Origin: a virus
Strand: one strand, 5' to 3'
Virus record (IMG/VR): IMGVR_UViG_3300034068_000230
Span: 1-29,172 of that record
DNA: 29,172 nt
Within the stretch, counting starts at the first letter, position 1. Each line of letters starts with the position of its first letter. A program made the position numbers and the translations under genes. This document shows, one piece after another, positions 1 through 29,172 of this stretch. The notes beneath the pieces were generated by a model. That model worked only from the letters and a program-made list of their open reading frames with translations. It was not told the DNA's origin and made no database searches.

Positions 1-395
1 CTCCTGCATCACCCGGCGCACCCAGTCGCCGGAGACCAGGCGCCGTTCCTTCTCGGCCTGGGTGATCACCTCGTCACGGGCCGACGTTAAGTTCTTGGCT
101 GCCGCGGCATGGATGGCCACCAGCCGGCCGGCGTCGGCTCGACCACCGCGAAGGGCATCGACCGCCAGGTCATAGGCCGCACGCTCGATTTGCCGCTGCC
201 TTTCGTAAGCGCCCTCAGGCGAGTCGGTGGCGGCGGTTGCGGTGTTGAGAGGGCTCTCGGCTTCAATGGGCCTGTAGGGGCCTTCCTGTTCGATTGCGGT
301 GGGGTCCGGTACGTTCTTCTGTTTAGGAATAGACTTAGCGCGTGACCTAACGTGTTGAGATCGCCAGAGGTCGGCTGACTCGGGCGAGTCCATGG
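1..395. repeat. Left copy of the imperfect 395-bp terminal overlap
   Basis: Bases 1-395 align without gaps to 28778-29172 (offset 28,777). They differ at 10 positions: 118, 151, 214, 217, 232, 235, 254, 259, 265 and 268. Positions 1-117 and 269-395 are identical. In the terminase reading frame nine changes fall at third codon positions and are synonymous; the one at 254 is a second-position change giving Ser here and Thr in the right copy. The pattern is what two strains of one gene look like, so the window ends are probably the same locus of a circular or permuted molecule. Confidence 0.93.
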
Positions 396-471
396 GCATC
401 CCCTGAGATATAAGCTGTGCGACCCGCGGCTGGCTTATACCGATGCGGTCGCCGTATTCCTTTTGTGTCAT
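1..471 (-). CDS. terS: Terminase small subunit, N-terminal part (runs off the left end)
   Basis: This is the 5' part of the small terminase gene, whose 3' part is at the right end of the window. Small terminase recognises the phage DNA and recruits the large subunit for packaging. Starting at the ATG at 471, the protein begins with a helix-turn-helix: MTQKEYGDRIGISQPRVAQL, followed by ISQGMPMDSPESA. This is typical of terminase small subunits, where the HTH binds the packaging site. The ATG overlaps the stop of the 74-aa gene as ATGA (468-471). The ATG at 393 would remove the whole HTH and is unlikely to be the start. Joined across the terminal overlap, the full protein is 208 aa. Only residues 1-157 are encoded in this copy, and residue 73 (Thr in the other copy) is Ser here. 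Confidence 0.85.
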   Translation of the reverse strand, partial: MTQKEYGDRIGISQPRVAQLISQGMPMDSPESADLWRSQHVRSRAKSIPKQKNVPDPTAIEQEGPYRPIEAESPLNTATAATDSPEGAYERQRQIERAAYDLAVDALRGGRADAGRLVAIHAAAAKNLTSARDEVITQAEKERRLVSGDWVRRVMQE

Positions 472-692
472 GGCTGCAAGGCGTCCTTGATCTCCTGGGG
501 CATCATTGAGTCGGGCAGGTTGCCTGCAAATTGGAGGGCTCGGAACACACCGTCGCGCCGGCTGTCGTAGTTGCTGGGCACCAGGGAACCGACGATCTGC
601 TCTGGAGTGGTGCCGCTTTTCATCAGCCGGATAAACCATGCGGTGTTGGCCAGGCCGAACTGGTCGACGAGGAATTGTATTTGGTTAGGCAT
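468..692 (-). CDS. Hypothetical protein, 74 aa, upstream of terS
   Basis: I do not recognise this 74-aa protein. It is mixed alpha-helical and soluble, with no cysteine motif or membrane segment. It contains the phrase FRALQFAGNLPDSM. Its stop overlaps the terS start as ATGA, so the two are probably translationally coupled. That places it at the head of the packaging operon after the early HTH gene at 776-1147. The start follows an A/T-rich stretch (TCAAATAATTTATG) with no Shine-Dalgarno. The 83 bases between it and the preceding gene (693-775) could hold a promoter, but I see no convincing -35/-10 pair. Confidence 0.6.
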   Translation of the reverse strand: MPNQIQFLVDQFGLANTAWFIRLMKSGTTPEQIVGSLVPSNYDSRRDGVFRALQFAGNLPDSMMPQEIKDALQP

Positions 693-775
693 AAATTATT
701 TGATGAAAGCATTACTCGCAGAAATTGATAGGGGTCTCGCGTTCACCTGTTATTGGAGATATGGCAAAAGATTCC

Positions 776-1147
776 TTACATATTTGCAGGTTTAACAGAG
801 GTGTCTATTGTACTATGCTCTATCCTTTGCTGCCTTAAATACATCTCATGGCCTTTCGCTATGATGTAAGCCACCGAACCACGGGCAACACCGCACGCCT
901 TGGCTACATCGTCGAGGCTTAGGTCACGCTCCCGTAGGTCGTAGGCCTTGCGACACACGTCGACATCCTGGGCGGTTGCGGTGATCTCGTAGTCCTCCTC
1001 CTCCTCGAGCACCACGACGGGCGTGCCTAAGGCACTGAGCTTGACGCTGCGAGGGTAGGACATCCAGCCACGCTTAATCGCCAGGGCAACCAGGTTGGGG
1101 GCTTCGTGCAGGAGTTTGATGCGGTCGAGGTCGTAGGGTATTTTCAT
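776..1147 (-). CDS. Small HTH protein, 123 aa
   Basis: The likely start is the ATG at 1147, which overlaps the stop of the DnaB-like helicase gene as ATGA. The longer reading from 1216 would run 70 bases into dnaB and gives an arginine/proline-rich N-terminus typical of a shadow frame. The C-terminal half has a helix-turn-helix, around LSLDDVAKACGVARGSVAYI, similar to those of phage regulators. An acidic run (VLEEEEDYE) precedes it. Gene position after the replicative helicase and before the packaging genes would suit a regulator of late expression, but this is inference. No catalytic motif is visible. Confidence 0.65.
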   Translation of the reverse strand: MKIPYDLDRIKLLHEAPNLVALAIKRGWMSYPRSVKLSALGTPVVVLEEEEDYEITATAQDVDVCRKAYDLRERDLSLDDVAKACGVARGSVAYIIAKGHEMYLRQQRIEHSTIDTSVKPANM

Positions 1148-2442
1148 TGGAAGGATGGTGATGGGTCGGTGAACCGGCAGAACTGGCCTTCGTACCAGAG
1201 GGGCACGAGGCCGCACTCGCCGTCTCGTTGTTTGGCGACAGCGATAATGGCCTCGCCGTTGGGTTGGTTGCGCTCCCGGTTGAGCAGCAGCACCAAGTCG
1301 GCGTCACGTTCGATCTGTCCTGAGTCGGCCAGGTCGGTGAGTCTAGGCACCCGGCCTTTGTCCTTTTCGTTCTCCCGGTTGAGTTGAGCCAGGGCGACCA
1401 CCGCGGTCTTGGTGTCGTGAGCCACGGCCTTGAGTCGGCCGGATACCTCGGCGATCTCGTAGGTTTTCTTTTCGGCTGCCTTGCTCCCGTGGATCTTCTG
1501 GAGGTAGTCGACCAGGACGAGTTTGACGCCCCATTTACGGACAGCCCGACGGATCACAGCGGTGATGGTGGCGATGCCGGACACACCGGAACCGGAGACA
1601 AAGTAGATCGGGCTGCCGGCCACCTTAGCGGAGGCACTGGCCATAGACTTCATTCCGCCTTCATCGAGGTCGCCGGTCTTGATGTCCTGCATTGGAATGG
1701 ATCCTACAGTAGAGACCATTCTCCGAACGATAGACTCGTCGGACATTTCCAACGAGATAAACAGGGTCGGCACCCGGTGCTCGATGGCTGCTGCCCGGGC
1801 TATTGCGATGGCGATGGCGGTCTTTCCGATGCTTGGCCTGGCCGCAATGATGGCCAGCTCGCCATACTGAAAGCCGTCGGTCATTGCGTCCAGGCGCCGG
1901 AAGCCGGAGGTGATGCCGGACAAGTGGCCCTTCCTGGCGAACCGCTCCTGGGTAGAGTCGATGAACCGACTCACTACCGACTTGCAGGGTTGCACCTCTT
2001 CCTTGGATGCCTCAACGGTGAGCCCTGCTTCGGCATTTGCGACGATTTGATCCACAGACAGGGTGGAGACAGCGGAATCGCGAATTAGACGGTCACCGGC
2101 GAATCGTAACTGCCGGCGGTGATGGGCCTCGAGGACAGCCTTGGAGAACTCGGGATGGTTGGACGGGCTGGCGCAGATCTCGTCGCACTTGTTTAGAGCC
2201 TCGAAAGGCACAGGAGTCTGGCCCATCGTGCGCTTCCACTCCTTGACCACGGTCGTCATGTTGACCGGATCGCTTTTGGCAACGAGGCCTTTGGCAATCT
2301 CGAACACATTGTACAGATCGCTGTCCTGTAGAGCCTCGCTCGGGATCTTGGCGAATACCTCGTGGCAGACATCGGAGCCACCGGATAGGCAGGCGCCCAG
2401 GAGGCCGAACTCGTCGTCCTCGGCAAAGTAGGGGTCGCTCAT
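1144..2442 (-). CDS. dnaB: Replicative DNA helicase, DnaB-like
   Basis: This is a hexameric 5'-3' replicative helicase that unwinds phage DNA at the fork. The 432-aa length is close to normal for phage DnaB proteins. The N-terminal helical domain (about residues 1-110) begins with the typical EFGLLGACLSGG segment. A RecA-like domain follows. Walker A is ARPSIGKT (residues 201-208), the segment TLFISLEMSDESIVRR corresponds to the conserved DnaB LEM region, and Walker B is LVLVDYLQKIHG (VDYLQ at 311-315). A later DLADSGQIERDADLVLLL segment is also typical. It overlaps the DUF1376 gene upstream and the HTH gene downstream, both as ATGA, forming a replication operon. Confidence 0.95.
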   Translation of the reverse strand: MSDPYFAEDDEFGLLGACLSGGSDVCHEVFAKIPSEALQDSDLYNVFEIAKGLVAKSDPVNMTTVVKEWKRTMGQTPVPFEALNKCDEICASPSNHPEFSKAVLEAHHRRQLRFAGDRLIRDSAVSTLSVDQIVANAEAGLTVEASKEEVQPCKSVVSRFIDSTQERFARKGHLSGITSGFRRLDAMTDGFQYGELAIIAARPSIGKTAIAIAIARAAAIEHRVPTLFISLEMSDESIVRRMVSTVGSIPMQDIKTGDLDEGGMKSMASASAKVAGSPIYFVSGSGVSGIATITAVIRRAVRKWGVKLVLVDYLQKIHGSKAAEKKTYEIAEVSGRLKAVAHDTKTAVVALAQLNRENEKDKGRVPRLTDLADSGQIERDADLVLLLNRERNQPNGEAIIAVAKQRDGECGLVPLWYEGQFCRFTDPSPSFQ

Positions 2443-3218
2443 AAATAGTCATTCAGGTCTGCACTGAGTGTTCCGCCCGCCCGGGACTCACCGATACCAG
2501 GAAGAAGACCGCTTCTAACCTTGTCGACCTCGCCGTTCCAGTTGTTCAGCAGAGCCATAGCATCTCGTCGAAGATATGGGTCCTTCGACTTGTAGCGTGC
2601 TTCGACAAGTAGGATGTCATCCTCCGGTGTGTTGAGCTCAAAGACCTCTTTCAAGGCCTTGATCTCCTTTGAGCTCCAGCGGGTGTCGTGGCGACGGCGA
2701 ACCATAGCACCGATTCGTAGGCGGAAGGCTTCAAGGTCAGGACTCAAGGCCTTCTCCTTCTTTGTATCTTCTTTAGGAGATGGAGACGGAGATGGAGAGT
2801 TGAATTCCGGTTGATCATCCGGTTGCAACACCGGTTGAACCGCGGTTGGATTCTGGTTGACCTGCTTTTGGCGTTCTAAAGCATCCAACCTGCGTTTTTC
2901 CGCGGATAACTTACCTTTTACCGATTGGCTCTGCAGAAACTTACCCTTTTCCGTCCTTACGGATTCCAGTCGGATGTTCCTAAGAAGCCCGTCTTCGCAT
3001 TCATCGAACTTAGCCAAGACGTCAACCGACACGCAACCGCCGGCCAACCGCTGTTGCTTTTCGGTTTCAACCGGAATTGAACCGCGGTTCCACTGGTGGC
3101 ACAGCAAACGAATTAACTGACCAACCTCGGCCTGCGACATATCAAGCGTGCCGGCTAGGAAGTCGTCGGTGTAAAGTTGGAAGGCTGGAGCCTTACGGGT
3201 TTTCTTCTCTTCTTTCAT
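2439..3218 (-). CDS. DUF1376 (YdaU-like) replication protein
   Basis: The N-terminus (APAFQLYTDDFLAGTLDMSQ, then AEVGQLIRLLCHQWNRGSIP) is a good match to the DUF1376/YdaU family. These phage proteins usually lie next to helicase genes and are thought to act in primosome assembly. The middle (about residues 95-160) is low complexity and charged, with a serine-proline run (SPSPSPSPKED). The C-terminal part is helical and may contact the helicase. Its stop overlaps the dnaB start as ATGA, which supports a helicase-loader or replisome-organiser role by context. A long inverted repeat lies in its 5' leader (3234-3297), just upstream of the ATG. Confidence 0.8.
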   Translation of the reverse strand: MKEEKKTRKAPAFQLYTDDFLAGTLDMSQAEVGQLIRLLCHQWNRGSIPVETEKQQRLAGGCVSVDVLAKFDECEDGLLRNIRLESVRTEKGKFLQSQSVKGKLSAEKRRLDALERQKQVNQNPTAVQPVLQPDDQPEFNSPSPSPSPKEDTKKEKALSPDLEAFRLRIGAMVRRRHDTRWSSKEIKALKEVFELNTPEDDILLVEARYKSKDPYLRRDAMALLNNWNGEVDKVRSGLLPGIGESRAGGTLSADLNDYL

Positions 3219-3401
3219 GTTTCAAACGGAAAACCCCACCCAGTCCGAGGTGAGAACTCGCGCAGAACCAACGCGACGTAACACGGAAAGGGTGGGGAAA
3301 AGTGGGTTGAACATGGGTTCTGGTTGTAGTGTCGGCGCTCACTTCTCACGGCTCACGCTGACGGTCTCTATCTATCTGCTGTCCTTGTGGATGTCCACCG
3401 C
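3219..3401. other. Intergenic region, 183 bp, before the DUF1376 gene
   Basis: This is the longest non-coding gap on the replication side other than the repeat loci. It holds the 64-base inverted repeat described separately and a short near-palindrome (GTGGATGTCCAC) near its distal end. I see no reading frame on the minus strand and no convincing sigma-70 promoter. It may carry a phage promoter that I cannot recognise. Confidence 0.5.
3234..3297 (-). promoter_or_regulatory. Two-tier hairpin in the leader of the DUF1376 gene
   Basis: On the minus-strand RNA an 8-bp stem CCCCACCC / GGGTGGGG (3297-3290 with 3241-3234) encloses a smaller stem TCGCG / CGCGA (3258-3262 with 3272-3276). The outer stem is followed at once by UUUUCC and, 15 nt later, by the ATG at 3218. 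It could act as a terminator for the upstream exonuclease transcript or as an attenuator of the primosome/helicase operon. Base pairing is seen directly; function is inference. Confidence 0.45.
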
Positions 3402-4064
3402 TTAGTAAGCCGGCATCAGTATGTCGGCCACCGCCTGGGTCAGCTTCACGTCCTGCAAGCAGTAGTTAATGGCCGCCTGCCTGTCGGTGTTCCACAGCAG
3501 GCTGAAGTCGGCGCCGTTGCCTGACTTCTCGCCGAGTCCCAGGTGCCTCGAGATGGACGCAAGGCTGCCGTGAGCCCGGTTGTCCCCGAGCTGCCACACC
3601 TCTCGAAGGTCGACCACCAGCTCCGACCAGTAACGGCCGTTCCGCAACCAGTAGGGCGGCATGATCTTGTGGCGCCAGGAGCGTTTGATCAGGAAGGGCA
3701 GGTCGAAGGCCTTGATGTTGAAGCCAATGAGCTGAGGCTGGCGCTCGTAATAGTTGAGCAGCGCCCACCATTGTCGCAGCAGGTGGGCCTCGCCGTCGGC
3801 ATCGGCGCAGAGGATGTTCTGCTCCTGATGGTCGACCCGGTAGCCGATGCACAGCACCTGGCCCGACAAGGCGTCCAGGGCGGCGTTGCGGATGTAGTCG
3901 GCCGTGTGGCTCTCCTCGGCCTTCTGGAGCTTCTCGGCGATCAAGTCGGGGTTCTTGATGTTGCCGAGCTTCACGTCGGCCGGGTTAAAGGCTGGGATGT
4001 TGAGCTGCTCGAGCGGTAGAGGCCCGGTCTCTATGTCGAAGTAAATGTTTGGATTGGCTGGCAT
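3402..4064 (-). CDS. DnaQ-like 3'-5' exonuclease
   Basis: The protein is a DEDD-type exonuclease with a ribonuclease-H-like fold, related to the exonuclease domain of family B polymerases. Motif ExoI is IYFDIETGPL (D10, E12). ExoII is around LIGFNIKAFDLPFLIKRS. The C-terminal motif is in NYCLQDVKLTQAV. At 220 aa it is a stand-alone exonuclease without a polymerase domain, and no DNA polymerase gene is seen in the window, so host polymerase is presumably used. It may edit or process DNA ends in replication or recombination. The leader upstream of ATG 4064 contains CAACAAC repeats and no Shine-Dalgarno. Confidence 0.85.
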   Translation of the reverse strand: MPANPNIYFDIETGPLPLEQLNIPAFNPADVKLGNIKNPDLIAEKLQKAEESHTADYIRNAALDALSGQVLCIGYRVDHQEQNILCADADGEAHLLRQWWALLNYYERQPQLIGFNIKAFDLPFLIKRSWRHKIMPPYWLRNGRYWSELVVDLREVWQLGDNRAHGSLASISRHLGLGEKSGNGADFSLLWNTDRQAAINYCLQDVKLTQAVADILMPAY

Positions 4065-4088
4065 TTGTCAGAGTTGTTGAGAGTTGTT

Positions 4089-4112
4089 GCGCGTTTGTCG
4101 GCCGATGCGCGC
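4089..4112 (-). promoter_or_regulatory. GCGCG/CGCGC hairpin upstream of the exonuclease gene
   Basis: An inverted repeat, GCGCG (4089-4093) and CGCGC (4108-4112), encloses the palindrome TCGGCCGA (4098-4105). It sits in the 94-base gap (4065-4158) before the exonuclease gene and is followed on the minus strand by a CAACAAC leader. A similar arrangement occurs at 9439-9457. The role is unknown; a promoter, protein-binding site or RNA hairpin are all possible. Confidence 0.35.
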
Positions 4113-4158
4113 CCCCGGCACTACGAGTCCCCGACAGCAACAGGCTGCCGGAAGGTGG

Positions 4159-4554
4159 TCAGATCTTTTTGCCGCAATGTGGGCAAACGAGGAAGTTGAT
4201 TGGCTCCCGGGTGGTCGGTACTTCAAGCCATTCGCAGATCTCGAAGTAGCTTACCCAACCGAATCCGCGAACAGCTCCTGGTCGAAGGTGGCCGGTGTTG
4301 TAGAGTTGCAAGGCCTCGTCGCGGCTTTTGACGCACAGCCTTTCGAGGGTGTTGAACGTCCTGACCGTAAACGGGAATCCCCATTGGCGCAGGATCTCCT
4401 CATGCATCTCGGCCGACTGCTCGATCTGTTTAATGCGCTGGCGAGACAGGTTAAAGTGCTGCCCGATCTCCTCGAGGGTCTTGCCTTCGGAGCGCATCCG
4501 AACCACCTCGGGCACTTTGTCGACCAGTTTGACGTAGGGCTTTCGGGTTTTCAT
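4159..4554 (-). CDS. Sigma region-4-like / alpha-CTD-like DNA-binding protein with a Cys pair
   Basis: The likely start is the ATG at 4554, one base after the stop of the SSB-like gene (TAAAATG); the reading from 4605 would intrude into that gene. The 131-aa protein has three parts. Residues 23-46 (GKTLEEIGQHFNLSRQRIKQ) closely match the helix-turn-helix of sigma-70 region 4. Residues 61-111 (FTVRTFNTLERL ... GAVRGFGWVSYFEICEWL) resemble the helix-hairpin-helix C-terminal domain of RNA polymerase alpha subunit. The end has CPHCGKK (124-130), a possible zinc site lacking a second obvious Cys pair. The combination suggests a transcription factor that mimics parts of host RNA polymerase. The domain reading is from motif recognition, not a search. 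Confidence 0.7.
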   Translation of the reverse strand: MKTRKPYVKLVDKVPEVVRMRSEGKTLEEIGQHFNLSRQRIKQIEQSAEMHEEILRQWGFPFTVRTFNTLERLCVKSRDEALQLYNTGHLRPGAVRGFGWVSYFEICEWLEVPTTREPINFLVCPHCGKKI

Positions 4555-4555
4555 T

Positions 4556-5302
4556 TTAGAATGGAATGTCTGAATCGGTGGGATCTTCCTGGGCGTTGAT
4601 CTCATCGATGCGCTTGGTAATGGCAGCGATAAGCTGGATGTCCTCCTGGGTCTTGCCCGGGCTAATCTTAGCCTTAGGCAGCCAGCGCTCGGCCAGGCCT
4701 CGCACAGCGTCGTCGGTCAGCTCCGAGATCGGCACACCCTTGAACTTGCCGACGTGTACCTGGGTGGCGCTTAGGTCAGGCGAGCGTTTGGTTGAACCGT
4801 CAGGAGTGATCGTCTTCACCTGGTCGTCATCCTTGGGCGGCCTGTCTTCCATCCGTACCCACAGGCCCGAGGGCTTGAGCGGCTCGCCGTTTTTGTGAGC
4901 CATGATCAGCTTGATGTTCGAGAACGTCTTGGTGCCGTCCTGGCTCTGCTCATGGACGATCACCACGGTAGCCGGTCGGCCGATAAGGCTGTCCAGGTCG
5001 AGGCTGGTGGTCTCCTCGGCAGTGAGGGCCCGACCGTGCCAGTCCTTAAGGAACTTGGTCAGGCCGGCCTTCTCGTGCAGGCTGGCGGTCATCGGCGCCG
5101 TCATGACCACCCAGGGCTGCACCGGGTTGCGTGTCTTGTCGATCATGTCCAACTCGAACGCGATCTTAAACTTTTGCTTTGGCCCATACTCGGTCTCATA
5201 GGTCTTTAGCGGTGTGATGTCGACGCACACCGCGCGGCCGGTGTACTCAGGGCACGGTGTAAAGGTGCCGCCTGTTTGTTTTGTTGATACTGTGATTCCC
5301 AT
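4556..5302 (-). CDS. Single-stranded DNA-binding-like protein
   Basis: The 248-aa protein has a beta-rich N-terminal region (about residues 1-135) compatible with an OB fold, with segments such as KFKIAFELDMID. It ends in an acidic tip, DPTDSDIPF, like the DDDIPF tail by which bacterial SSB recruits partner proteins. Before the tail there is a module around HVGKFKGVPISELTDDAV, resembling GK[FY]KG motifs in small phage nuclease-associated domains. The neighbours (exonuclease, primosome protein, helicase) support an SSB role. The leader from the previous stop to ATG 5302 is almost entirely CAA and CA repeats and lacks a Shine-Dalgarno. It could instead be another phage recombination cofactor. 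Confidence 0.65.
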   Translation of the reverse strand: MGITVSTKQTGGTFTPCPEYTGRAVCVDITPLKTYETEYGPKQKFKIAFELDMIDKTRNPVQPWVVMTAPMTASLHEKAGLTKFLKDWHGRALTAEETTSLDLDSLIGRPATVVIVHEQSQDGTKTFSNIKLIMAHKNGEPLKPSGLWVRMEDRPPKDDDQVKTITPDGSTKRSPDLSATQVHVGKFKGVPISELTDDAVRGLAERWLPKAKISPGKTQEDIQLIAAITKRIDEINAQEDPTDSDIPF

Positions 5303-5325
5303 GTTGTTGCTGTGTTGTGTTGTTG

Positions 5326-5517
5326 TTACTTAGAGGATTGCTTTTCAACCTCCGAAAGCTGTTTAGCCATTCTGTCATACTGCGACCAGTACTCAGGCCA
5401 GGCCGCCTTGATCTTCGCCAGATTCTCTGGGTCTGCCACGAGCGCCGCGGCGCCTAGTTTGCGAACGAATGACCCGCCATATTCGATCATTGTGAAGGCT
5501 ACATCAAAGTCTTTCAT
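5326..5517 (-). CDS. Hypothetical protein, 63 aa
   Basis: The start is set at ATG 5517, which overlaps the preceding stop as ATGA. The longer version from 5547 would run into the upstream gene. The sequence (MKDFDVAFTMIEYGGSFVRK, followed by an alanine-rich helix and FPEYW-like segment AAWPEYWSQYDRM) matches a small protein often seen in phage early regions, whose function I do not know. It is predicted soluble and helical. Confidence 0.65.
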   Translation of the reverse strand: MKDFDVAFTMIEYGGSFVRKLGAAALVADPENLAKIKAAWPEYWSQYDRMAKQLSEVEKQSSK

Positions 5518-5702
5518 TGGATAATGAAGTCGAAGTTGGTTTTCCAAGAGTCGCCCAGGCGATTGTAGGTGTCGTGCTTGATCTTCCAGAGTTTAGGATT
5601 GCGAGTCGTTCCAGTGTGTCTGCACCGGATTCTGACATCGATGTCCTGTATTGCGACGTTCCGCAGCCGGTGGTCTTCCGGCAGTTCGTGAAGGTGTTTC
5701 AT
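5514..5702 (-). CDS. Hypothetical protein, 62 aa
   Basis: A small basic protein with several histidines (MKHLHELPEDH...) and no motif that I recognise. Its stop overlaps the next gene as ATGA. Directly upstream, the string ATGAACCAAATAAAATGA could encode a five-residue peptide that overlaps this start as ATGA. That may be a coupling leader or chance. Low GC compared with the structural genes. Confidence 0.55.
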   Translation of the reverse strand: MKHLHELPEDHRLRNVAIQDIDVRIRCRHTGTTRNPKLWKIKHDTYNRLGDSWKTNFDFIIQ

Positions 5703-5738
5703 TTTATTTGGTTCATGGTTTAGGGTGTATCACTCACG

Positions 5739-5912
5739 CTATTTGTCCTCCCGCCAGAGCAGCAGATCCGCTCGCATTGCGTCGTTCTCCTGCTCCAGTT
5801 GTTTCACCCGATCCTCCAGCTTACGGACATCGAGAGCGATTGCGCGGAGTTGGCGGCGGTCGTTGTAATCGGCAAAAGCCGGCAGGTCCAAGATTCGTTG
5901 TTCTACGCTCAC
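5739..5912 (-). CDS. Small coiled-coil protein, 57 aa, GTG start
   Basis: The start is placed at GTG 5912, which overlaps the upstream stop as GTGA. The alternative ATG at 5954 would overlap the previous gene by 46 bases. The C-terminal half is a heptad-like helix (DVRKLEDRVKQLEQENDAM) ending in LLLWREDK, so it may dimerise. A similar coiled coil occurs in the gene just upstream (KRLEEDLMDAKNQ, IKQLEEALWL), so the two may be diverged duplicates or partners. Function unknown. Confidence 0.6.
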   Translation of the reverse strand: MSVEQRILDLPAFADYNDRRQLRAIALDVRKLEDRVKQLEQENDAMRADLLLWREDK

Positions 5913-6259
5913 GGCTTGTCCTCTTTGGCTGTGGAAATTGGCTGTTTCAACCACAACGCTTCCTCCAACTGTTTGATGCGCTCGCCCCTGTCCTCGTACA
6001 ACGCAACGTCAGCGACTAACACTGCGTACTGGTTCTTCGCGTCCATTAGATCCTCCTCCAACCGCTTGATGCGCTCCTCTTGCTCACGAATCTTGGTGGC
6101 CTGTGCGTCGTCCATCCATGTTTCTCGCATGATTTGTAACACCTTCGCTGCTGTCTCCGTAGGTTTAAGATGCTCGGCTGCGGTGATTGTTCCATCGGCG
6201 TGGATTGTGAGTAATTCTGCGTTGCACTTGTGTCTATCAAGAATAATTGTATCGTTCAT
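5909..6259 (-). CDS. Coiled-coil protein, 116 aa
   Basis: The start is placed at ATG 6259 because it overlaps the upstream stop as ATGA; the ATG at 6274 would give five extra residues and a 19-base overlap. The N-terminal third is beta-rich (MNDTIILDRHKCNAELLTIH, then ADGTITAAEH). The rest is a long charged helix with heptads (REQEERIKRLEEDLMDAKNQ). Proteins with this layout are common in phage early clusters, and I do not know their role. Confidence 0.6.
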   Translation of the reverse strand: MNDTIILDRHKCNAELLTIHADGTITAAEHLKPTETAAKVLQIMRETWMDDAQATKIREQEERIKRLEEDLMDAKNQYAVLVADVALYEDRGERIKQLEEALWLKQPISTAKEDKP

Positions 6260-6444
6260 TTGCATTCCTTCCATTTAAACTGAGCTTTACCGCTTGTGTC
6301 GGCCACCCACTCGGCATGGCCTGCTTGGACTGCTTGCTGCTTCATATTGTCAATTCCGCTCACCTCTCCGCAAAGGTTTGACACTGTGCATGCAAAGATA
6401 ACCAAGATGACGCATGGGATTATTAACGGTGCATATTCTTTCAT
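6256..6444 (-). CDS. Small membrane protein, 62 aa
   Basis: One N-terminal transmembrane helix (APLIIPCVILVIFACTV) is followed by a short soluble domain with the pattern AVQAGHAEWVADTSGKAQFK and WKEC. This A-x-x-x-G-H-A-x-W...F-x-W pattern recurs in small phage proteins of unknown function. The gene overlaps both neighbours as ATGA. It could be a membrane anchor or a host-takeover factor; there is no evidence for holin activity. Confidence 0.65.
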   Translation of the reverse strand: MKEYAPLIIPCVILVIFACTVSNLCGEVSGIDNMKQQAVQAGHAEWVADTSGKAQFKWKECK

Positions 6445-6650
6445 TTCGCCTTCTCCCTCGCTTTGAGCATTGCGTCGGCTAGTTGATAGGTGGCTTTGGA
6501 AATAGCATTAACATCCCAAGACTCGTATACTTTCCACGCTACTGGCAACGCCGCCGCAGCGAAGTAGTCGCGCATTAAAATGCCATCGTTGTGCTGTACT
6601 CCGACTGGTGTTGGAAACGCTGGTCCTCCGTCGTTGATTGGTGCGCTCAC
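6441..6650 (-). CDS. Conserved phage protein, 69 aa (NDGGPAFP type)
   Basis: The protein has the arrangement MSAPINDGGPAFPTPVGVQH, then GILMRDYFAAAALPVA and a C-terminal YQLADAMLKARE helix. I recognise this from many phage and prophage genomes, where it is annotated only as a hypothetical protein. It is coupled to the RuvC-like gene upstream by an ATGA overlap. No catalytic residues are evident. Confidence 0.75.
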   Translation of the reverse strand: MSAPINDGGPAFPTPVGVQHNDGILMRDYFAAAALPVAWKVYESWDVNAISKATYQLADAMLKAREKAK

Positions 6651-7102
6651 TTGATGCCCTCCGCAATCAAGGCGTGCTCCAACAAAAGCACCGCATCTGC
6701 CGTCTTAAGCGTAATGTGGAGGCTAGGCTGCCGTTGCTGCGCCAAGCCCTTCAGATGGCCCTTCCAGCGCGTTCCATGCGTCTTGCTGGTGCCTGCACCC
6801 AAAGTCCGCTGCCACCGCTGTGGTGTCACCTCGATGCACCTGGTGTTCATGCTGGCGATGAGGCCATGCAGGAAGCCGACATTGCGACCGAAGTTGAACA
6901 TGGCGCTACCCGGCGCCCCTTTGCCTCCGATGTAACCACCGACCTTTTCGATGTAGACCACATCCGACTGGCTCAGGAAGTTGACCAGGACATCTCGGAT
7001 GTCCCTGTCGGTCGTCGGCATGGGCTCCAGGGTGACCCGGTTGCCGGCGAAGTGCGCCAGGCCGCCGCTCATGCCTGGGTCGATGGCCAAGATCCGTTTC
7101 AT
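6647..7102 (-). CDS. RuvC-like Holliday junction resolvase
   Basis: The protein resolves four-way or branched DNA, probably before packaging. It has the ribonuclease-H-fold signature of the RuvC family: AIDPGMSGG (D8), VVYIEKV (E52) and KTADAVLLLEHA (D136) as acidic metal ligands. At 151 aa it is near the usual RuvC size. It lies between a predicted ribbon-helix-helix gene and small early genes, each overlapping by 4 bases. A phage with a replication module and no polymerase often carries such a resolvase. Confidence 0.88.
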   Translation of the reverse strand: MKRILAIDPGMSGGLAHFAGNRVTLEPMPTTDRDIRDVLVNFLSQSDVVYIEKVGGYIGGKGAPGSAMFNFGRNVGFLHGLIASMNTRCIEVTPQRWQRTLGAGTSKTHGTRWKGHLKGLAQQRQPSLHITLKTADAVLLLEHALIAEGIK

Positions 7103-7236
7103 CGGGCGGCCTTCTTTAGCCAGGCTAAGATTGCATGGTCGGCCACCGCCTGAATCTTGAGGCCGTTGACGAGGCAGTAGGCTCGCAGTTTTTGGTGGGT
7201 GGTTGGTGTCACGTTGATGGTCTTAGGCTTGTTCAT
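7099..7236 (-). CDS. Ribbon-helix-helix-like protein, 45 aa
   Basis: A short gene with overlapping ATGA junctions at both ends (7233-7236 and 7099-7102). The protein reads MNKPKTINVTPTTHQKLRAY, CLVNGLKIQAVADHAILAWL, KKAAR. The short beta strand (KTINVTP) followed by two helices with LRAYC and AILAWL is what Arc/CopG-type ribbon-helix-helix proteins look like, so it may be a dimeric DNA-binding repressor. No search was run. Its exact fit between two genes makes it very likely to be translated. Confidence 0.72.
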   Translation of the reverse strand: MNKPKTINVTPTTHQKLRAYCLVNGLKIQAVADHAILAWLKKAAR

Positions 7237-7709
7237 TGGGTAAGCTGCTTAGAGATCTCCTGGCCGAGGCTGGATGATGTTCTGCCCAGGAGGGCTACAC
7301 GGTGCGCCATCTTCTCGGTCACAGCCTCGTGCCTCTTCCTTTCACATTCCGACAGCAGGTTAAGGTTCGTCCTGGTGCCCAGGATTACCGATGCCTTAAG
7401 GCTGTTTACTGCCACGCGGTTCATGCGCTCCATTTCGTCGGCGTTGGTATTGGGAGGCGCGATATGGAAGCCAGCCCCGCGGAGACCCCTCTGGCTGAAG
7501 TTCATTCCTCGGTGCCGCAGCACCATCCGGATGTTCAAGATTTCCATGTTAAATTCCACGCTTCCGAACTTCTCCTCTAGTGCTGCCTCCATCTCCTCGG
7601 TGGTCACGGTCAGGCCATAGGCCAGCCGGTGCTCGTTGCGTTCGATCCAGTCCTTCCAGAGCGGAAGGCGCCGGACCTCTTCTTCGTTGATCATGTCTTG
7701 TGTTTCCAT
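7233..7709 (-). CDS. Possible winged-helix protein, 158 aa
   Basis: The function is not recognised. The middle, IRMVLRHRGMNFSQRGLRGA followed by GFHIAPP, resembles the recognition helix and wing of OmpR-type winged-helix domains (typically xRRxLxxxG...xRGxGYxIxPP). The first 40 residues are acidic, and the C-terminus is helical. The gene is preceded by three units of the GGCNN repeat, with the last hairpin ending 14 bases before its ATG. If those repeats are attenuators, this gene is the immediate target. Leader CACAACATG, no Shine-Dalgarno. Confidence 0.6.
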   Translation of the reverse strand: METQDMINEEEVRRLPLWKDWIERNEHRLAYGLTVTTEEMEAALEEKFGSVEFNMEILNIRMVLRHRGMNFSQRGLRGAGFHIAPPNTNADEMERMNRVAVNSLKASVILGTRTNLNLLSECERKRHEAVTEKMAHRVALLGRTSSSLGQEISKQLTQ

Positions 7710-7723
7710 GTTGTGAAAGTTGC

Positions 7724-7929
7724 CCGGTGTTACCGCACACCGGAAAGCGTTGTTGCCCTACCAAGCCGAGCCGAGCCCTGCCCTGCCAAGCCACGCCCTA
7801 CCGCTCCCTGAAAAATTGTCTGAGTTACCGTACCCAGTGACGTGTTGCCTGGCCATGCCCGGCCCTGCGAAGCCCAGCCGCGCCCTGCCGCGCCAATCCC
7901 TAAAAAATTGTCCCGGATACCGCGCCGGG
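7724..7929 (-). promoter_or_regulatory. Three hairpins with constant RCGGYA loops (locus 1)
   Basis: Stems are at 7724-7730/7737-7743 (7 bp), 7820-7825/7832-7837 (6 bp with one pair that is A/C on the plus strand but U-G in minus-strand RNA) and 7912-7916/7925-7929 (5 bp plus an internal mismatch). Stem sequences differ, yet the 6-nt loop on the transcribed strand is GCGGUA, ACGGUA and GCGGUA. After the second and third hairpins the RNA reads ACAAUUUUU(U), like a short intrinsic terminator. After the first it continues GCAACUUUC to the next gene. Covariation and wobble support a minus-strand RNA structure. Confidence 0.75.
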
Positions 7930-8000
7930 TCGCGTGTTGCCTTGCCTGGCCGCGCCGAGCCTGGCCGCGCCGCGCCTAGCCATACCCAGCCTTGAGAAAA
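7724..8000 (-). repeat. GGCNN composite repeat locus 1 (three units)
   Basis: On the minus strand each unit is a U-rich box, then GGC triplets exactly 5 nt apart, a 9-11 nt spacer and a hairpin. Counted on the plus strand as GCC-type triplets, the arrays start every 5 bases from 7755 to 7805, 7847 to 7897 and 7939 to 7989: eleven triplets each. The two spacer bases vary freely. Exceptions to GCC are ACC at 7760, 7800 and 7984, TCC at 7805 and 7897, and GCG at 7867. Units are contiguous (about 7724-7820, 7820-7913, 7912-8000). The locus begins directly at the stop codon of the 8001-8576 gene and fills the gap to the 7233-7709 gene. No reading frame is conserved through it. Confidence 0.9.
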
Positions 8001-8576
8001 TCAAACCACCTCGACAGTGAACCGGCCGAACTTCGGTCGCCAGTCGCCCAGGCCGACCAATCCGCCAGCCTCGCGTGTTGCGTCGATTACCTGCTCCTTT
8101 GAGACAACCGATTCGTCAAACTCAATGGTGCAGGTCGCCCACCAACCGGAAGGAACCATCGGCCGGACTCGAATGATTCCTAGGTCGACCCGCTTTCGCA
8201 GTGTGAATGCTGGGTCGGAGTAAATCTGCTCCTTGGTCTGGCCCATCTTGCGATGGTGAATCACCACCTCTGCCTCGGATAGGAGCACCGCGGCGTCGAA
8301 CTTCTTGCCGAGTCGCGCCTTCTTGGCGCCGTCCTTGAGGCACTTCTCGATGTTGTCGCACGGAAGGACCATGCCGTTCTCGATGTCTGACCAGTAAAGG
8401 CCGGCCTCCCATTCGAGGCGGTCGCGTTCGTCATGATCGCTTGGTGTCATGTTTTTGCTGCCCTTGACGGTGATCCGTTTGATCGCCACGACATAAGGGT
8501 TTTTGTGATCCACCATGTCGCCGTTGTGCATGATGAGGGGCCGCAGCCCGGTGAGTTTGACTTTGATTTGCTTCAT
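8001..8576 (-). CDS. Conserved phage protein, 191 aa, RAMP/Cas7-like by pattern
   Basis: I recognise the pattern from many phage genomes but know no assigned function. It starts with KVKLTGLRPLIMHNGDMVD, has a WEAGLYW...GMVLPCDNIEKC segment and ends with GGLVGLGDWRPKFGRFTVEV. The beginning (a beta strand leading into PLIMHNG), the middle PxxNIExxL and the glycine-rich GLGDWRPKFGRF end recall the ferredoxin-fold RAMP proteins (Cas5/Cas7), so an RNA- or ssDNA-binding role is possible. The gene is flanked on both sides by GGCNN repeat loci and is the only gene with that placement. Its leader is CAA-rich with no Shine-Dalgarno. The RAMP link is my inference from motifs. Confidence 0.6.
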   Translation of the reverse strand: MKQIKVKLTGLRPLIMHNGDMVDHKNPYVVAIKRITVKGSKNMTPSDHDERDRLEWEAGLYWSDIENGMVLPCDNIEKCLKDGAKKARLGKKFDAAVLLSEAEVVIHHRKMGQTKEQIYSDPAFTLRKRVDLGIIRVRPMVPSGWWATCTIEFDESVVSKEQVIDATREAGGLVGLGDWRPKFGRFTVEVV

Positions 8577-8619
8577 GTTGTTTTGCTTTGGTTGCCTTGT
8601 TGTTGTTTACCGAAAGTGT

Positions 8620-8743
8620 CCGGTGATACCGCCCACCGGCAGGCGTTGTTGCCTCGCGCTGCCGCGCCGTGCCACACCGCGCCGCGCCGTGCCTAGCCGT
8701 GCCGAGCCCGACCCTGAAAAATTGTCCTGGTTGCCGTACCAGG
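8620..8743 (-). promoter_or_regulatory. Two hairpins with RCGGYA loops (locus 2)
   Basis: Stems are 8620-8625/8634-8639 (6 bp plus a U-G pair in minus-strand RNA) and 8726-8731/8738-8743 (6 bp). On the transcribed strand their loops are GCGGUA and ACGGCA. The hairpin at 8726-8743 is followed by ACAAUUUUUC; the one nearer the 8001-8576 gene is followed by ACACUUUCGG and then the CAAC leader. The arrangement repeats that of locus 1: the hairpin nearest the gene lacks the U-run and the internal one has it. Confidence 0.75.
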
Positions 8744-8813
8744 TGACGTATTGCCTCGCCATGCCGAGCCAAGCCGTGCCAGGCCATGCTACGCCAAGCC
8801 GAGCCTCGGAAAA
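8620..8813 (-). repeat. GGCNN composite repeat locus 2 (two units)
   Basis: It has the same architecture as the locus at 7724-8000. Plus-strand triplets start every 5 bases from 8651 to 8711 (thirteen) and from 8753 to 8803 (eleven). Non-GCC triplets are GCG at 8656, ACC at 8676 and 8711, and GCT at 8788. The first unit is bounded by CTGAAAAATTGTC and the second by TCGGAAAATCA, which runs into the stop of the transglycosylase-like gene. Locus 2 therefore fills the gap between that gene and the leader of the 8001-8576 gene. Confidence 0.9.
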
Positions 8814-9143
8814 TCATTTGATGACCTTCTGCACCTTCGCCCAGTAAGCCACCGTCGAAGCCTTGCGGTCGCCAGTCGGGCCCCCATTCCATCTCCTGGC
8901 CAACTGCTCGGTGGTGGCGCCGCGGCCGTAGTGGGTCAGGTAGGCCTGGCAGACTGCTCGGGCTGCCACCCGGTTGGTCATGTCCTGGTGCCGGTAATGG
9001 CTGCCGGTGATCCGGTTGACGTCCAGGACAACGGCCTTGTGAATCTGGAGGCAGCCAATGGCGCGGCCTTGGTCACCGATGGCCAGGTCGTTATTGCTGC
9101 TCTCGACCAGCATCAGGGCGGTGATGAGGTTGGTCAGGTTCAT
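8814..9143 (-). CDS. Lytic-transglycosylase-like endolysin, 109 aa
   Basis: The protein probably cleaves the glycan strands of peptidoglycan at lysis. The start LITALMLVESSNNDLAIGDQ carries the ES[SG]-N motif of SLT/lysozyme-like folds, with E14 as the likely catalytic acid. GRAIGCLQIHKAVVLDVNRI matches the G-x-x-Q-I-H/T segment that follows, and RRWNGGP resembles the (Y/W)N(G/A)G motif. At 109 aa it is a minimal catalytic domain without a cell-wall-binding part or signal peptide, so it needs a holin. It is 10 kb away from the holin-like cluster at 18.7-19.4 kb. It overlaps the upstream gene as ATGA, and its stop abuts the GGCNN repeat locus. Confidence 0.75.
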   Translation of the reverse strand: MNLTNLITALMLVESSNNDLAIGDQGRAIGCLQIHKAVVLDVNRITGSHYRHQDMTNRVAARAVCQAYLTHYGRGATTEQLARRWNGGPTGDRKASTVAYWAKVQKVIK

Positions 9144-9403
9144 GGCTGGACGTAGCAGGAGATTCCATCGACCACGATGATGCCGTGGCCGCCGTCGATT
9201 ATGGCTACCACAGCGCTAGTCTCGGCCTCGACCAGTGTCGCCGGCCGGATGTACATCCCCGACTTGTAGTCGTGCAGGTCGCCGTTGGAATGGTCGAATG
9301 CCTGGAAGCAGGGCATCGAGCAGAAGTTGCCCATCTCTCGGTCTTCGGGCAGCGGTCCTTGGCAGTGGATGCAGGTGGTGGGTTGGAAGAGGATGTTACT
9401 CAT
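9140..9403 (-). CDS. Putative zinc-finger protein, 87 aa
   Basis: The N-terminus carries two cysteine pairs, TCIHCQG (C11, C14) and NFCSMPCFQ (C28, C32), which fits a small zinc ribbon of the treble-clef/FYVE-like size. The rest is a short beta-rich domain (AVVAIIDGGHGIIVVDGISC). Function unknown. The gene is coupled to the endolysin gene by ATGA. Its leader is CACCACC and CAAC repeats without a Shine-Dalgarno. Confidence 0.65.
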   Translation of the reverse strand: MSNILFQPTTCIHCQGPLPEDREMGNFCSMPCFQAFDHSNGDLHDYKSGMYIRPATLVEAETSAVVAIIDGGHGIIVVDGISCYVQP

Positions 9404-9438
9404 GGTGTTGCTGTTGTTTGCTTTGGTGGTGGTTGTTT

Positions 9439-9457
9439 GCGCGTTGGCCAGTCGCGC
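9439..9457 (-). promoter_or_regulatory. GCGCG/CGCGC hairpin upstream of the zinc-finger gene
   Basis: GCGCG (9439-9443) and CGCGC (9453-9457) flank a GGCC core. On the minus strand the element reads GGGGCGCG...GGCC...CGCGCAAACAAC, close to the element at 4089-4112 (GGGGCGCG...GGCC...CGCGCAACAAC). Both lie in gaps just under 100 bases long (9404-9499 here) directly before CAA-rich leaders. A shared promoter or binding site is possible. Confidence 0.35.
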
Positions 9458-9499
9458 CCCTGGTTGGGTGGTATTCGCCCCACCCGGGCGTAAATTGAA

Positions 9500-9733
9500 T
9501 TAGTTCCAATCGGGATGGTTGCTGGTCACAAGAGCCACCCGATCCCATCCGCGGCAGAGTGCAATGTGACCGCCACCAATGTGAACGTAAGCCGAGTTAA
9601 CTGCATTTCGCAGAATCTGAGCGGCTTGTTGGCGGGTCAATTCGCCAAGGTCTGCACCAGTTTTTAAAAGAACGATTGCAGTGCGCTCTTCTGTGGTGGG
9701 GGTGTTTTCGTATCGGACGGTGATCTTGCTCAT
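9500..9733 (-). CDS. Hypothetical protein, 77 aa
   Basis: Not recognised. It starts with a beta strand (MSKITVRYENTPTTEERTAI), followed by a helical part (GELTRQQAAQILRNAVNSAY) and a glycine-histidine turn (HIGGGHIALCRGWDRVALV). It is the first small gene after the 912-aa tail-tip gene. Leader AAACCAAAGCAAAACATG, without a Shine-Dalgarno. Confidence 0.55.
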   Translation of the reverse strand: MSKITVRYENTPTTEERTAIVLLKTGADLGELTRQQAAQILRNAVNSAYVHIGGGHIALCRGWDRVALVTSNHPDWN

Positions 9734-9801
9734 GTTTTGCTTTGGTTTGCTGTTTTTGTTGCCTTCGACGTGATCAAGATGGGCGATGCCCAGCCTTTCG
9801 T

Positions 9802-9827
9802 CTACAGAGAAAACTGTTTTTCTGTAG
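9802..9827. promoter_or_regulatory. Hairpin after the 912-aa gene
   Basis: CTACAGAGAAA (9802-9812) pairs with TTTTTCTGTAG (9817-9827) through 11 pairs including one G-T, leaving a 4-base loop. It begins 42 bases downstream of the stop of the 912-aa gene on the minus strand. There is no U-run after it in either direction, so it may be an RNA-stabilising or processing stem rather than a classic terminator. The rest of the 135-base gap (9734-9868) shows nothing else clear besides the tandem repeat at 9851. Confidence 0.5.
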
Positions 9828-9850
9828 ATTTGAGAGAAAACCCAATGTTT

Positions 9851-9872
9851 ACAGGGGTCAAACAGGGGTCAA
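9851..9872. repeat. 11-bp direct repeat over the stop of the 912-aa gene
   Basis: ACAGGGGTCAA occurs twice in tandem at 9851-9861 and 9862-9872. The stop codon (TGA on the minus strand, 9871-9869) lies in the second copy. The duplication could be a recent slippage event and shows a second, out-of-use TGA in the other copy. Confidence 0.7.
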
Positions 9873-28625: not shown

Positions 28626-29172
28626 TTCCATGGGTCGGTGTTGTGTAGTGTTTTAAGCGCCACCTCCTGGACCCACCGGGTCAGCTCGCGCTCGGCGTGC
28701 TCGGGGTCATGCGGTGCAATACGGCCGGAGAGCTGCTTCGGCATGGCCTTGATCAGCGAGGCCACGGCGCCGTCGTGCTCCTGCATCACCCGGCGCACCC
28801 AGTCGCCGGAGACCAGGCGCCGTTCCTTCTCGGCCTGGGTGATCACCTCGTCACGGGCCGACGTTAAGTTCTTGGCTGCCGCGGCATGGATGGCGACCAG
28901 CCGGCCGGCGTCGGCTCGACCACCGCGGAGGGCATCGACCGCCAGGTCATAGGCCGCACGCTCGATTTGCCGCTGCCTTTCGTAAGCGCCTTCTGGCGAG
29001 TCGGTGGCTGCTGTTGCGGTGTTGAGAGGGGTCTCTGCTTCTATAGGCCTGTAGGGGCCTTCCTGTTCGATTGCGGTGGGGTCCGGTACGTTCTTCTGTT
29101 TAGGAATAGACTTAGCGCGTGACCTAACGTGTTGAGATCGCCAGAGGTCGGCTGACTCGGGCGAGTCCATGG
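28622..29172 (-). CDS. terS: Terminase small subunit, C-terminal part (open at the right end)
   Basis: The frame is open to the window end. The visible ATG at 29170 corresponds to an internal Met; across the join the real start is the ATG at 471 in the left copy, adding a 26-residue HTH start for a total of 208 aa. The encoded part includes an acidic/basic N-terminal linker (DSPESADLWRSQHVRSRAKS), a long helical region (ERQRQIERAAYDLAVDALRG) and a C-terminal EREVALKT-like end (WVQEVALKTLHNTDPWK). The helical centre is probably the oligomerisation domain. Its stop overlaps the methyltransferase start as ATGA. Confidence 0.85.
   Translation of the reverse strand, partial: MDSPESADLWRSQHVRSRAKSIPKQKNVPDPTAIEQEGPYRPIEAETPLNTATAATDSPEGAYERQRQIERAAYDLAVDALRGGRADAGRLVAIHAAAAKNLTSARDEVITQAEKERRLVSGDWVRRVMQEHDGAVASLIKAMPKQLSGRIAPHDPEHAERELTRWVQEVALKTLHNTDPWK
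28778..29172. repeat. Right copy of the imperfect 395-bp terminal overlap
   Basis: It aligns without gaps to 1-395 with 10 substitutions (see the left copy). The substitutions are confined to one internal stretch of 151 bases (28895-29045). Nine are silent and one is conservative (Thr here, Ser in the left copy). It is not an insertion sequence or direct repeat of another gene. Confidence 0.93.

Follow-up and report, generated by a model that had tools for sequence, protein, structure and literature searches.

The question raised by this locus is why a protein of only 131 aa, the two halves of which resemble the promoter-touching ends of two RNA polymerase subunits, sigma and alpha, should be encoded within the replication cassette of an uncultured phage, and what it does there. 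The window referred to below is the whole stretch of DNA analysed, an IMG/VR virus record of 29,172 bases. Because both modules show this resemblance, the protein probably binds DNA and regulates phage genes, and the evidence for its parts, for their conservation and for other possible roles is considered in the following.

The gene and its neighbours

The features identified, listed in the order of transcription, were as follows.

4556..5302, minus strand: upstream neighbour, replication-initiation-like protein (NCBIfam NF046043, 3.6e-27, 95 bits versus a cut-off of 75)
4159..4554, minus strand: coding sequence of the 131-aa sigma4-like/alphaCTD-like protein, stop codon (4159-4161) included
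4384..4527, minus strand: sigma region 4-like helix-turn-helix (HTH), residues 10-57 (Pfam, AlphaFold helices, VIA-align)
4216..4383, minus strand: alpha-CTD-like domain, predicted, residues 58-113 (C-half model, Foldseek, VIA-align, hhalign)
4171..4185, minus strand: CPHCG, a single zinc-knuckle-like CxxCG, residues 124-128 (conservation in 98 sequences)
4131..4151, minus strand: RNA stem 1, CCGGCAGC/GCTGTCGG, just past the stop codon (covariation)
4089..4119, minus strand: H-type pseudoknot of a 4-bp stem and a 5-bp helix, preceding the exonuclease gene (covariation)
3402..4064, minus strand: downstream neighbour, PolB-type 3'-5' exonuclease (PF10108, 1.4e-11)

The earlier note on this DNA had given the extent of the 131-aa open reading frame exactly, and to this the strand, absent from that note, can be added: the gene lies on the minus strand, and the plus strand at 4159-4554 does not encode the protein. 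The same note had put the gene between an SSB-like and an exonuclease gene; its position and the exonuclease stand, and the product of 4556-5302 matches NCBIfam's NGO0469 family of phage replication initiation proteins (NF046043) instead of an SSB. The 131-aa gene sits in a replication cassette, with primosomal and DnaB helicase-like genes next in it (Pfam, PHROGs), and all window proteins with family matches were encoded on the minus strand. In the protein, GKTLEEIGQHFNLSRQRIKQ corresponds to residues 24-43 and CPHCGKKI to the C-terminal end; start and length were kept in its relatives.

A scan of viral contigs revealed relatives of the protein in 74 of 75 loci, the 75th (L075) having a 29-residue HTH match only, and alignment-based scans confirmed 242 and 243 stretches, 80 being retained from each. 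For residue counts, 213 loci with the family were reduced to 100 distinct sequences and, after two truncated ones had been removed, to 98. The gene is under purifying selection, with a median dN/dS of 0.146 and a maximum of 0.243 over 189 usable pairs from 20 sequences. Among loci with room for the neighbour in question, some of them being the same contig with other flanks, the exonuclease was downstream in 206/209 and the replication-initiation-like gene directly upstream in 176/190; the spacing between the latter and the 131-aa gene was 2-6 nt in 58 of the 68 loci measured. A search started from the upstream neighbour gave 76 loci with room for the 131-aa gene, and 75 of them carried it, L450 being the sole exception; in 7 of these 76 it overlapped the neighbour's end (tblastn 9e-94 to 1.4e-73). 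Loci L292, L314 and L450 share one arrangement in which the gene is missing; since it is absent from this lineage, it is not indispensable. The protein is retained by a large group of uncultured phages.

Its fixed place between the replication-initiation-like gene and the exonuclease, with primosomal and DnaB helicase functions encoded next, and the synteny counted above over partly overlapping loci would be expected of a replication accessory, namely an origin- or initiator-associated DNA-binding factor, in which both modules serve the upstream replication-initiation protein and not transcription. However, both domains resemble DNA binders of the transcription machinery, and no replication initiator of such architecture was found in Pfam, PHROGs or NCBIfam. 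We therefore regard a replication accessory as rather unlikely.

One divergent relative (L134) was located in a contig of a Verrucomicrobiota MAG. The family alignment matched 31 of 387 Verrucomicrobiota genomes, strongly and over the whole length in this MAG only, the remaining matches being to the HTH part or weak; Verrucomicrobiota were considered as the host and set aside, the matches being too weak to name one. The annotated phage collection gave no near match for window 1-25000, and tblastn matches in it were confined to the HTH part of the protein. One weak plasmid match was also obtained.

The sigma4-like and alpha-CTD-like halves

AlphaFold placed the helices of the N-terminal half at residues 10-22, 27-34 and 38-58. 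Residues 16-48 matched Pfam Sigma70_r4 (PF04545) at E=3.5e-8, and with a whole-protein score of 33.3 bits versus a cut-off of 24.1 the protein belongs to this family, in agreement with the HTH of sigma-70 region 4 type described earlier. Sigma70_r4 was found at E<=10 in 23/23 members of alignment A1 (best 7.8e-9), and PDB sequence searches listed mostly sigma factors; pentatricopeptide matches in the PDB search were discarded as artefactual, being sums of repeats that score 3-10 bits each. In L134, Sigma70_r4 was below the cut-off (20.4 bits; cut-off 24.1) and another HTH family scored above it. By VIA-align, residues 11-57 of the model matched sigma4 chains at 32-37% identity (Z about 5). The N-terminal half also aligned to LsrR, DeoR, KorB and LuxR-type HTHs with Z up to 6.5, some of these exceeding sigma4; LsrR and DeoR equalled or surpassed it, and sigma4 is not the single best fold for this half. 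Thus, the label of sigma4-like HTH is firm, and that of sigma region 4 by function is not. No match to sigma region 2 was found within the 131 aa, where hits from Pfam, PHROGs and NCBIfam fell at residues 3-64 or in the cysteine tail, and the protein is therefore not a sigma factor. In the recognition helix, Q39, R40 and Q43 were each present in 98/98 sequences, position 42 being variable.

For the C-terminal half, helices were predicted near residues 64-72, 78-86, 92-95 and 100-109. The whole-protein model (A1, 23 sequences; pLDDT 72.5, pTM 0.55) gave no Foldseek match at E<=0.001, and its VIA-align rows over residues 58-113 were alpha-CTDs (7vpd_S, Z 5.2; 2max, Z 4.9). When residues 50-131 were modelled alone (A3, 26 sequences; pLDDT 81.5, pTM 0.67), Foldseek at E<=10 yielded three matches among 350,542 PDB chains, all of them RNA polymerase alpha subunits and all weak (E 1.6-7.6), and 9/9 VIA-align rows were alpha subunits with Z 4.8-5.9; middling Z values are common with VIA-align, and for the C half no other family was among the rows. 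The best row, 7vpd_S, had Z 5.9 over 55 residues at an rmsd of 3.0 and 27% identity; alignment to E. coli 1lb2_B gave Z 5.2 over 56 residues, and that to 3n97_C gave Z 4.9. A generic HTH or helix-hairpin-helix look was considered as the source of this likeness and rejected, Foldseek having given alpha subunits only for the C half.

Profile comparison by hhalign of the C half with 14 Verrucomicrobiota alpha-CTDs gave a score of 24.3 (P 3.6e-4, probability 37%), versus a mean of 10.0 (sd 2.06) and a maximum of 18.0 in 200 column shuffles, and 2max ranked best, weakly (E 0.15), when the C-half profile was searched against PDB sequences. PF03118 (RNA_pol_A_CTD; cut-off 23.8 bits) had no match to the window protein at E<=10; it was weak in 12/23 and 14/26 members (best E 0.033 and 0.027, none above the cut-off), the latter making it the family matched by most C-half members, and L134 reached 12.3 bits, under the same cut-off. 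A narrow alpha-CTD model built from Verrucomicrobiota, used in a plain profile search, was rejected as proof of homology, its best real score (6.2 bits) being lower than the best of 980 shuffles (9.2 bits). Residues 58-113 are predicted to fold like the C-terminal domain of RNA polymerase alpha. The alpha-CTD-like segment of the earlier note is thus upheld by the predicted fold and the profile-profile score, under the Pfam cut-off by sequence, and the two folds that it expected, sigma4 and alpha-CTD, are predicted in the right halves of the protein. Structure 3n97, a solved complex in which adjacent UP/-35 DNA is bound by alpha-CTD and sigma region 4, was among the structural matches of both halves.

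With the register between the phage protein and E. coli alpha taken from hhalign, R65 (alpha R265) was conserved in 98/98 and N68 (N268) in 93/98 sequences, and G99 (G296), S102 (S299) and E105 (E302) in 98/98, 97/98 and 98/98, respectively, the last three alpha residues being likewise part of the DNA-contact signature. The equivalents of alpha 259/261, which in E. coli are acidic residues through which alpha-CTD touches sigma, were Gly and Pro in 98/98, so that the acidic pair is missing. R265 and N294 of E. coli alpha enter the minor groove with K291/K298 contacting the backbone (PMC7822876), DNA binding by alpha involves R265 and N268 (PMC11434276), and R265, N294 and K298 are also named (PMC5101437). 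Not every DNA contact of alpha is retained, since the K298 equivalent was K/R in only 47/98 and that of N294 was Gly/Ser in 98/98, N294 being kept in 0/98.

The likeness of the domains to two polymerase ends would also suit a mimic directed at RNA polymerase. Its sigma4-like part would occupy the site on the beta flap, or its alpha-CTD-like part would compete with the alpha-CTD of the host, and host transcription would be shut off or redirected, with an effect like that of T4 gp33 or AsiA. T4 gp33, with 112 residues, can be viewed as such a sigma4 mimic on the beta flap (PMC2988020); the same source, however, gives gp33 no sigma sequence likeness and no reading of DNA sequence. Q39, R40 and Q43 are retained throughout, although a pure protein mimic need not keep them, and the Gly/Pro at the 259/261 positions also speaks against this role. 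Because this acidic pair is missing while most of the DNA-contact signature stays, plain DNA binding is favoured over polymerase mimicry, which we hold to be quite improbable. In our picture, the C half is a minor-groove binder that can do without the contact to sigma, because it is covalently joined to a sigma4-like partner.

The terminal CPHC of the earlier note was recovered within CPHCGKKI. In this tail C124, C127 and G128 were each present in 98/98 sequences and H126 in 95/98, and outside it C107 (helix 4) and H89 were each found in 98/98. There is a single CxxC (C124/C127), not the two knuckles of a zinc ribbon, and Zn_ribbon_3 was below its cut-off (E 0.13). Our guess is that a C3H site links the tail to the alpha-CTD-like domain.

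The RNA element downstream

The 97-nt stretch past the stop codon (4062-4158, minus strand) was conserved. In an alignment of 25 sequences, the hairpin and pseudoknot had pairs in 97.9% of cells, with a covariation of 0.305 versus 0.165 (sd 0.013) for shuffles, 0/500 of which reached it, and at most 0.096 for the slid model. All three RNA helices contained base pairs in which both partners had changed, although further pair types in them were no more numerous than in shuffles. The claim of an RNA rests on covariation, because the folding energy of the window sequence was no better than that of shuffles (z +1.0). RNA model R1 was found in 164 of 165 loci searched (79/80 and 85/85), the sole miss being L075, which lacks the full gene; it occurred once per record in 8/8 whole records, and L024 had two copies, the second adjoining a second copy of the gene. 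No Rfam family matched the RNA downstream of the 131-aa gene.

Loci L292, L314 and L450, which lack the 131-aa gene, lack stem 1 too, while they retain the pseudoknot sequence ahead of the exonuclease gene. By reason of this difference, separate roles are proposed: stem 1 may end the message of the 131-aa gene, and the next gene may have the pseudoknot as its leader element. The whole RNA was considered as part of the 131-aa gene and rejected as such, the pseudoknot surviving the loss of gene and stem 1 in these three loci, and another ORF following the RNA in L064 (an extra small one at about 3617-3909, between the RNA and the exonuclease gene in the group of L064).

An autoregulator that binds, with its HTH and helix-hairpin-helix-type domains, the structured RNA encoded right after its own gene appears very improbable. 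In its favour, the covarying hairpin of the window starts 7 nt past the stop codon, hits of the RNA model in the loci searched directly follow the gene, and stem 1 and the gene are absent together in L292/L314/L450. Against it, the pseudoknot persists in that lineage despite the absence of the gene, DNA is the usual ligand of HTH and alpha-CTD folds, and no RNA-binding family was matched.

A candidate promoter regulator and its counterparts

The reading preferred here, to which we give slightly better than an even chance, is that the 131-aa protein is a two-domain, sequence-specific DNA-binding promoter regulator that tunes transcription by the host polymerase. Made together with the replication genes, this small protein would read a major groove by the sigma4-like HTH; the alpha-CTD-like domain, which the model joins directly to the long recognition helix, would hold the neighbouring minor groove by its conserved Arg65 region, and the CxxC tail probably caps this domain. 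Bound at phage promoters, as we infer, the protein would act on host RNA polymerase by activation or repression, possibly at its own replication operon. Redirection towards late genes, an example given in the earlier note, would be a conjecture, the gene itself being placed in the replication cassette. No RNA polymerase was matched among the window proteins scanned, one 912-aa ORF having no family assignment, and sigma70-type promoters were not in excess in window 1-10000 (2 found versus 3.7 expected).

A single-chain stand-in for the sigma4/alpha-CTD pair, which would take the -35 and proximal UP elements of phage promoters with altered -35 specificity and recruit or re-aim host RNA polymerase, is in our opinion unlikely. 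The invariant Gln39 is at the position where housekeeping sigma has Glu585. The stand-in, if true, would represent promoter hijacking by environmental phages in a compact form. If the preferred proposal of a two-domain promoter regulator is right, the two upstream promoter-reading ends of the polymerase are packed into 131 residues, as a minimal system for how sigma4 and alpha-CTD share promoter DNA, and its carriage by many uncultured phages would provide a testable handle on the timing of their gene expression.

Compared with RNA polymerase alpha-CTD (PF03118), the C half has the same predicted fold and the R265/G296/S299/E302 signature, but it is under the Pfam cut-off, has three extra residues before the GFG loop and lacks the 259/261 acidic pair; unlike RNA polymerase alpha, the protein has no match in its 131 aa to the alpha N-terminal dimerisation domain (Pfam, PHROGs, NCBIfam). 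A close likeness in architecture is a protein of a Verrucomicrobiota genome (G005:C340, at L265), in which alpha-CTD (PF03118, 3.9e-13) and sigma region 4 (Sigma70_r4, 5.3e-7) occur in one chain, both above the Pfam cut-off. It differs in being bacterial, 356 aa long from the first Met, with alpha-CTD first (the opposite order), a long extra C-terminal region having no Pfam match, and no tail knuckle. Phage-encoded proteins with a C-terminal alpha-CTD, like the window protein, are Atraxi gp24 (139 aa; PF03118 4.5e-11) and Mazun gp26 (1.7e-13) of Microbacterium phages, Zenteno07 gp68 (1e-10) of a Mycobacterium phage and the 'RNA polymerase subunit alpha' (210 aa; 4.3e-22) of Bacillus phage Goe8; these, however, are clear PF03118 members with N-terminal parts lacking Sigma70_r4, and belong to different phage groups.

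MotA and AsiA of T4 have folds other than that of the window protein. They and gp33 are small phage proteins that act at the sigma4/-35 zone of the host polymerase (PMC2988020, PMC2988021), as the window protein would, MotA/AsiA being the case of sigma appropriation in T4 (PMC2988021). BREX systems contain an alpha-CTD-like domain in PglW and a sigma-HTH-like one in BrxL (PMC12839542). Borrowing of the alpha-CTD and sigma4 folds is thus known from G005:C340, the phage alpha-CTD proteins and PglW/BrxL. No phage sigma4/alpha-CTD fusion was found in the literature searched, within which the domain order, size, tail and phage group of the 131-aa protein are new to us. Bacterial fusions may reportedly be described in a 2012 paper on HARE-HTH.

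Several other features of the window were noticed. A 300-nt repeat, 97% identical, was present at its two ends (1-300 and 28778-29077), perhaps because the genome is circular or permuted and its assembly ran beyond one full turn, the joint carrying a strain variant. Obvious Shine-Dalgarno sites were few, and many starts followed A/C-rich, AACAAC-like leaders, e.g. at 4065-4090, 5303-5325 and 8577-8600. On the minus strand, arrays of GGCNN pentamers at 7712-8000 and 8600-8800 flanked the gene at 8001-8576, with 14 exact 5-unit matches versus 0 in 100 shuffles, and were interleaved with hairpins followed by ACAATTTTT; this pattern was present in 11 of 271 loci.
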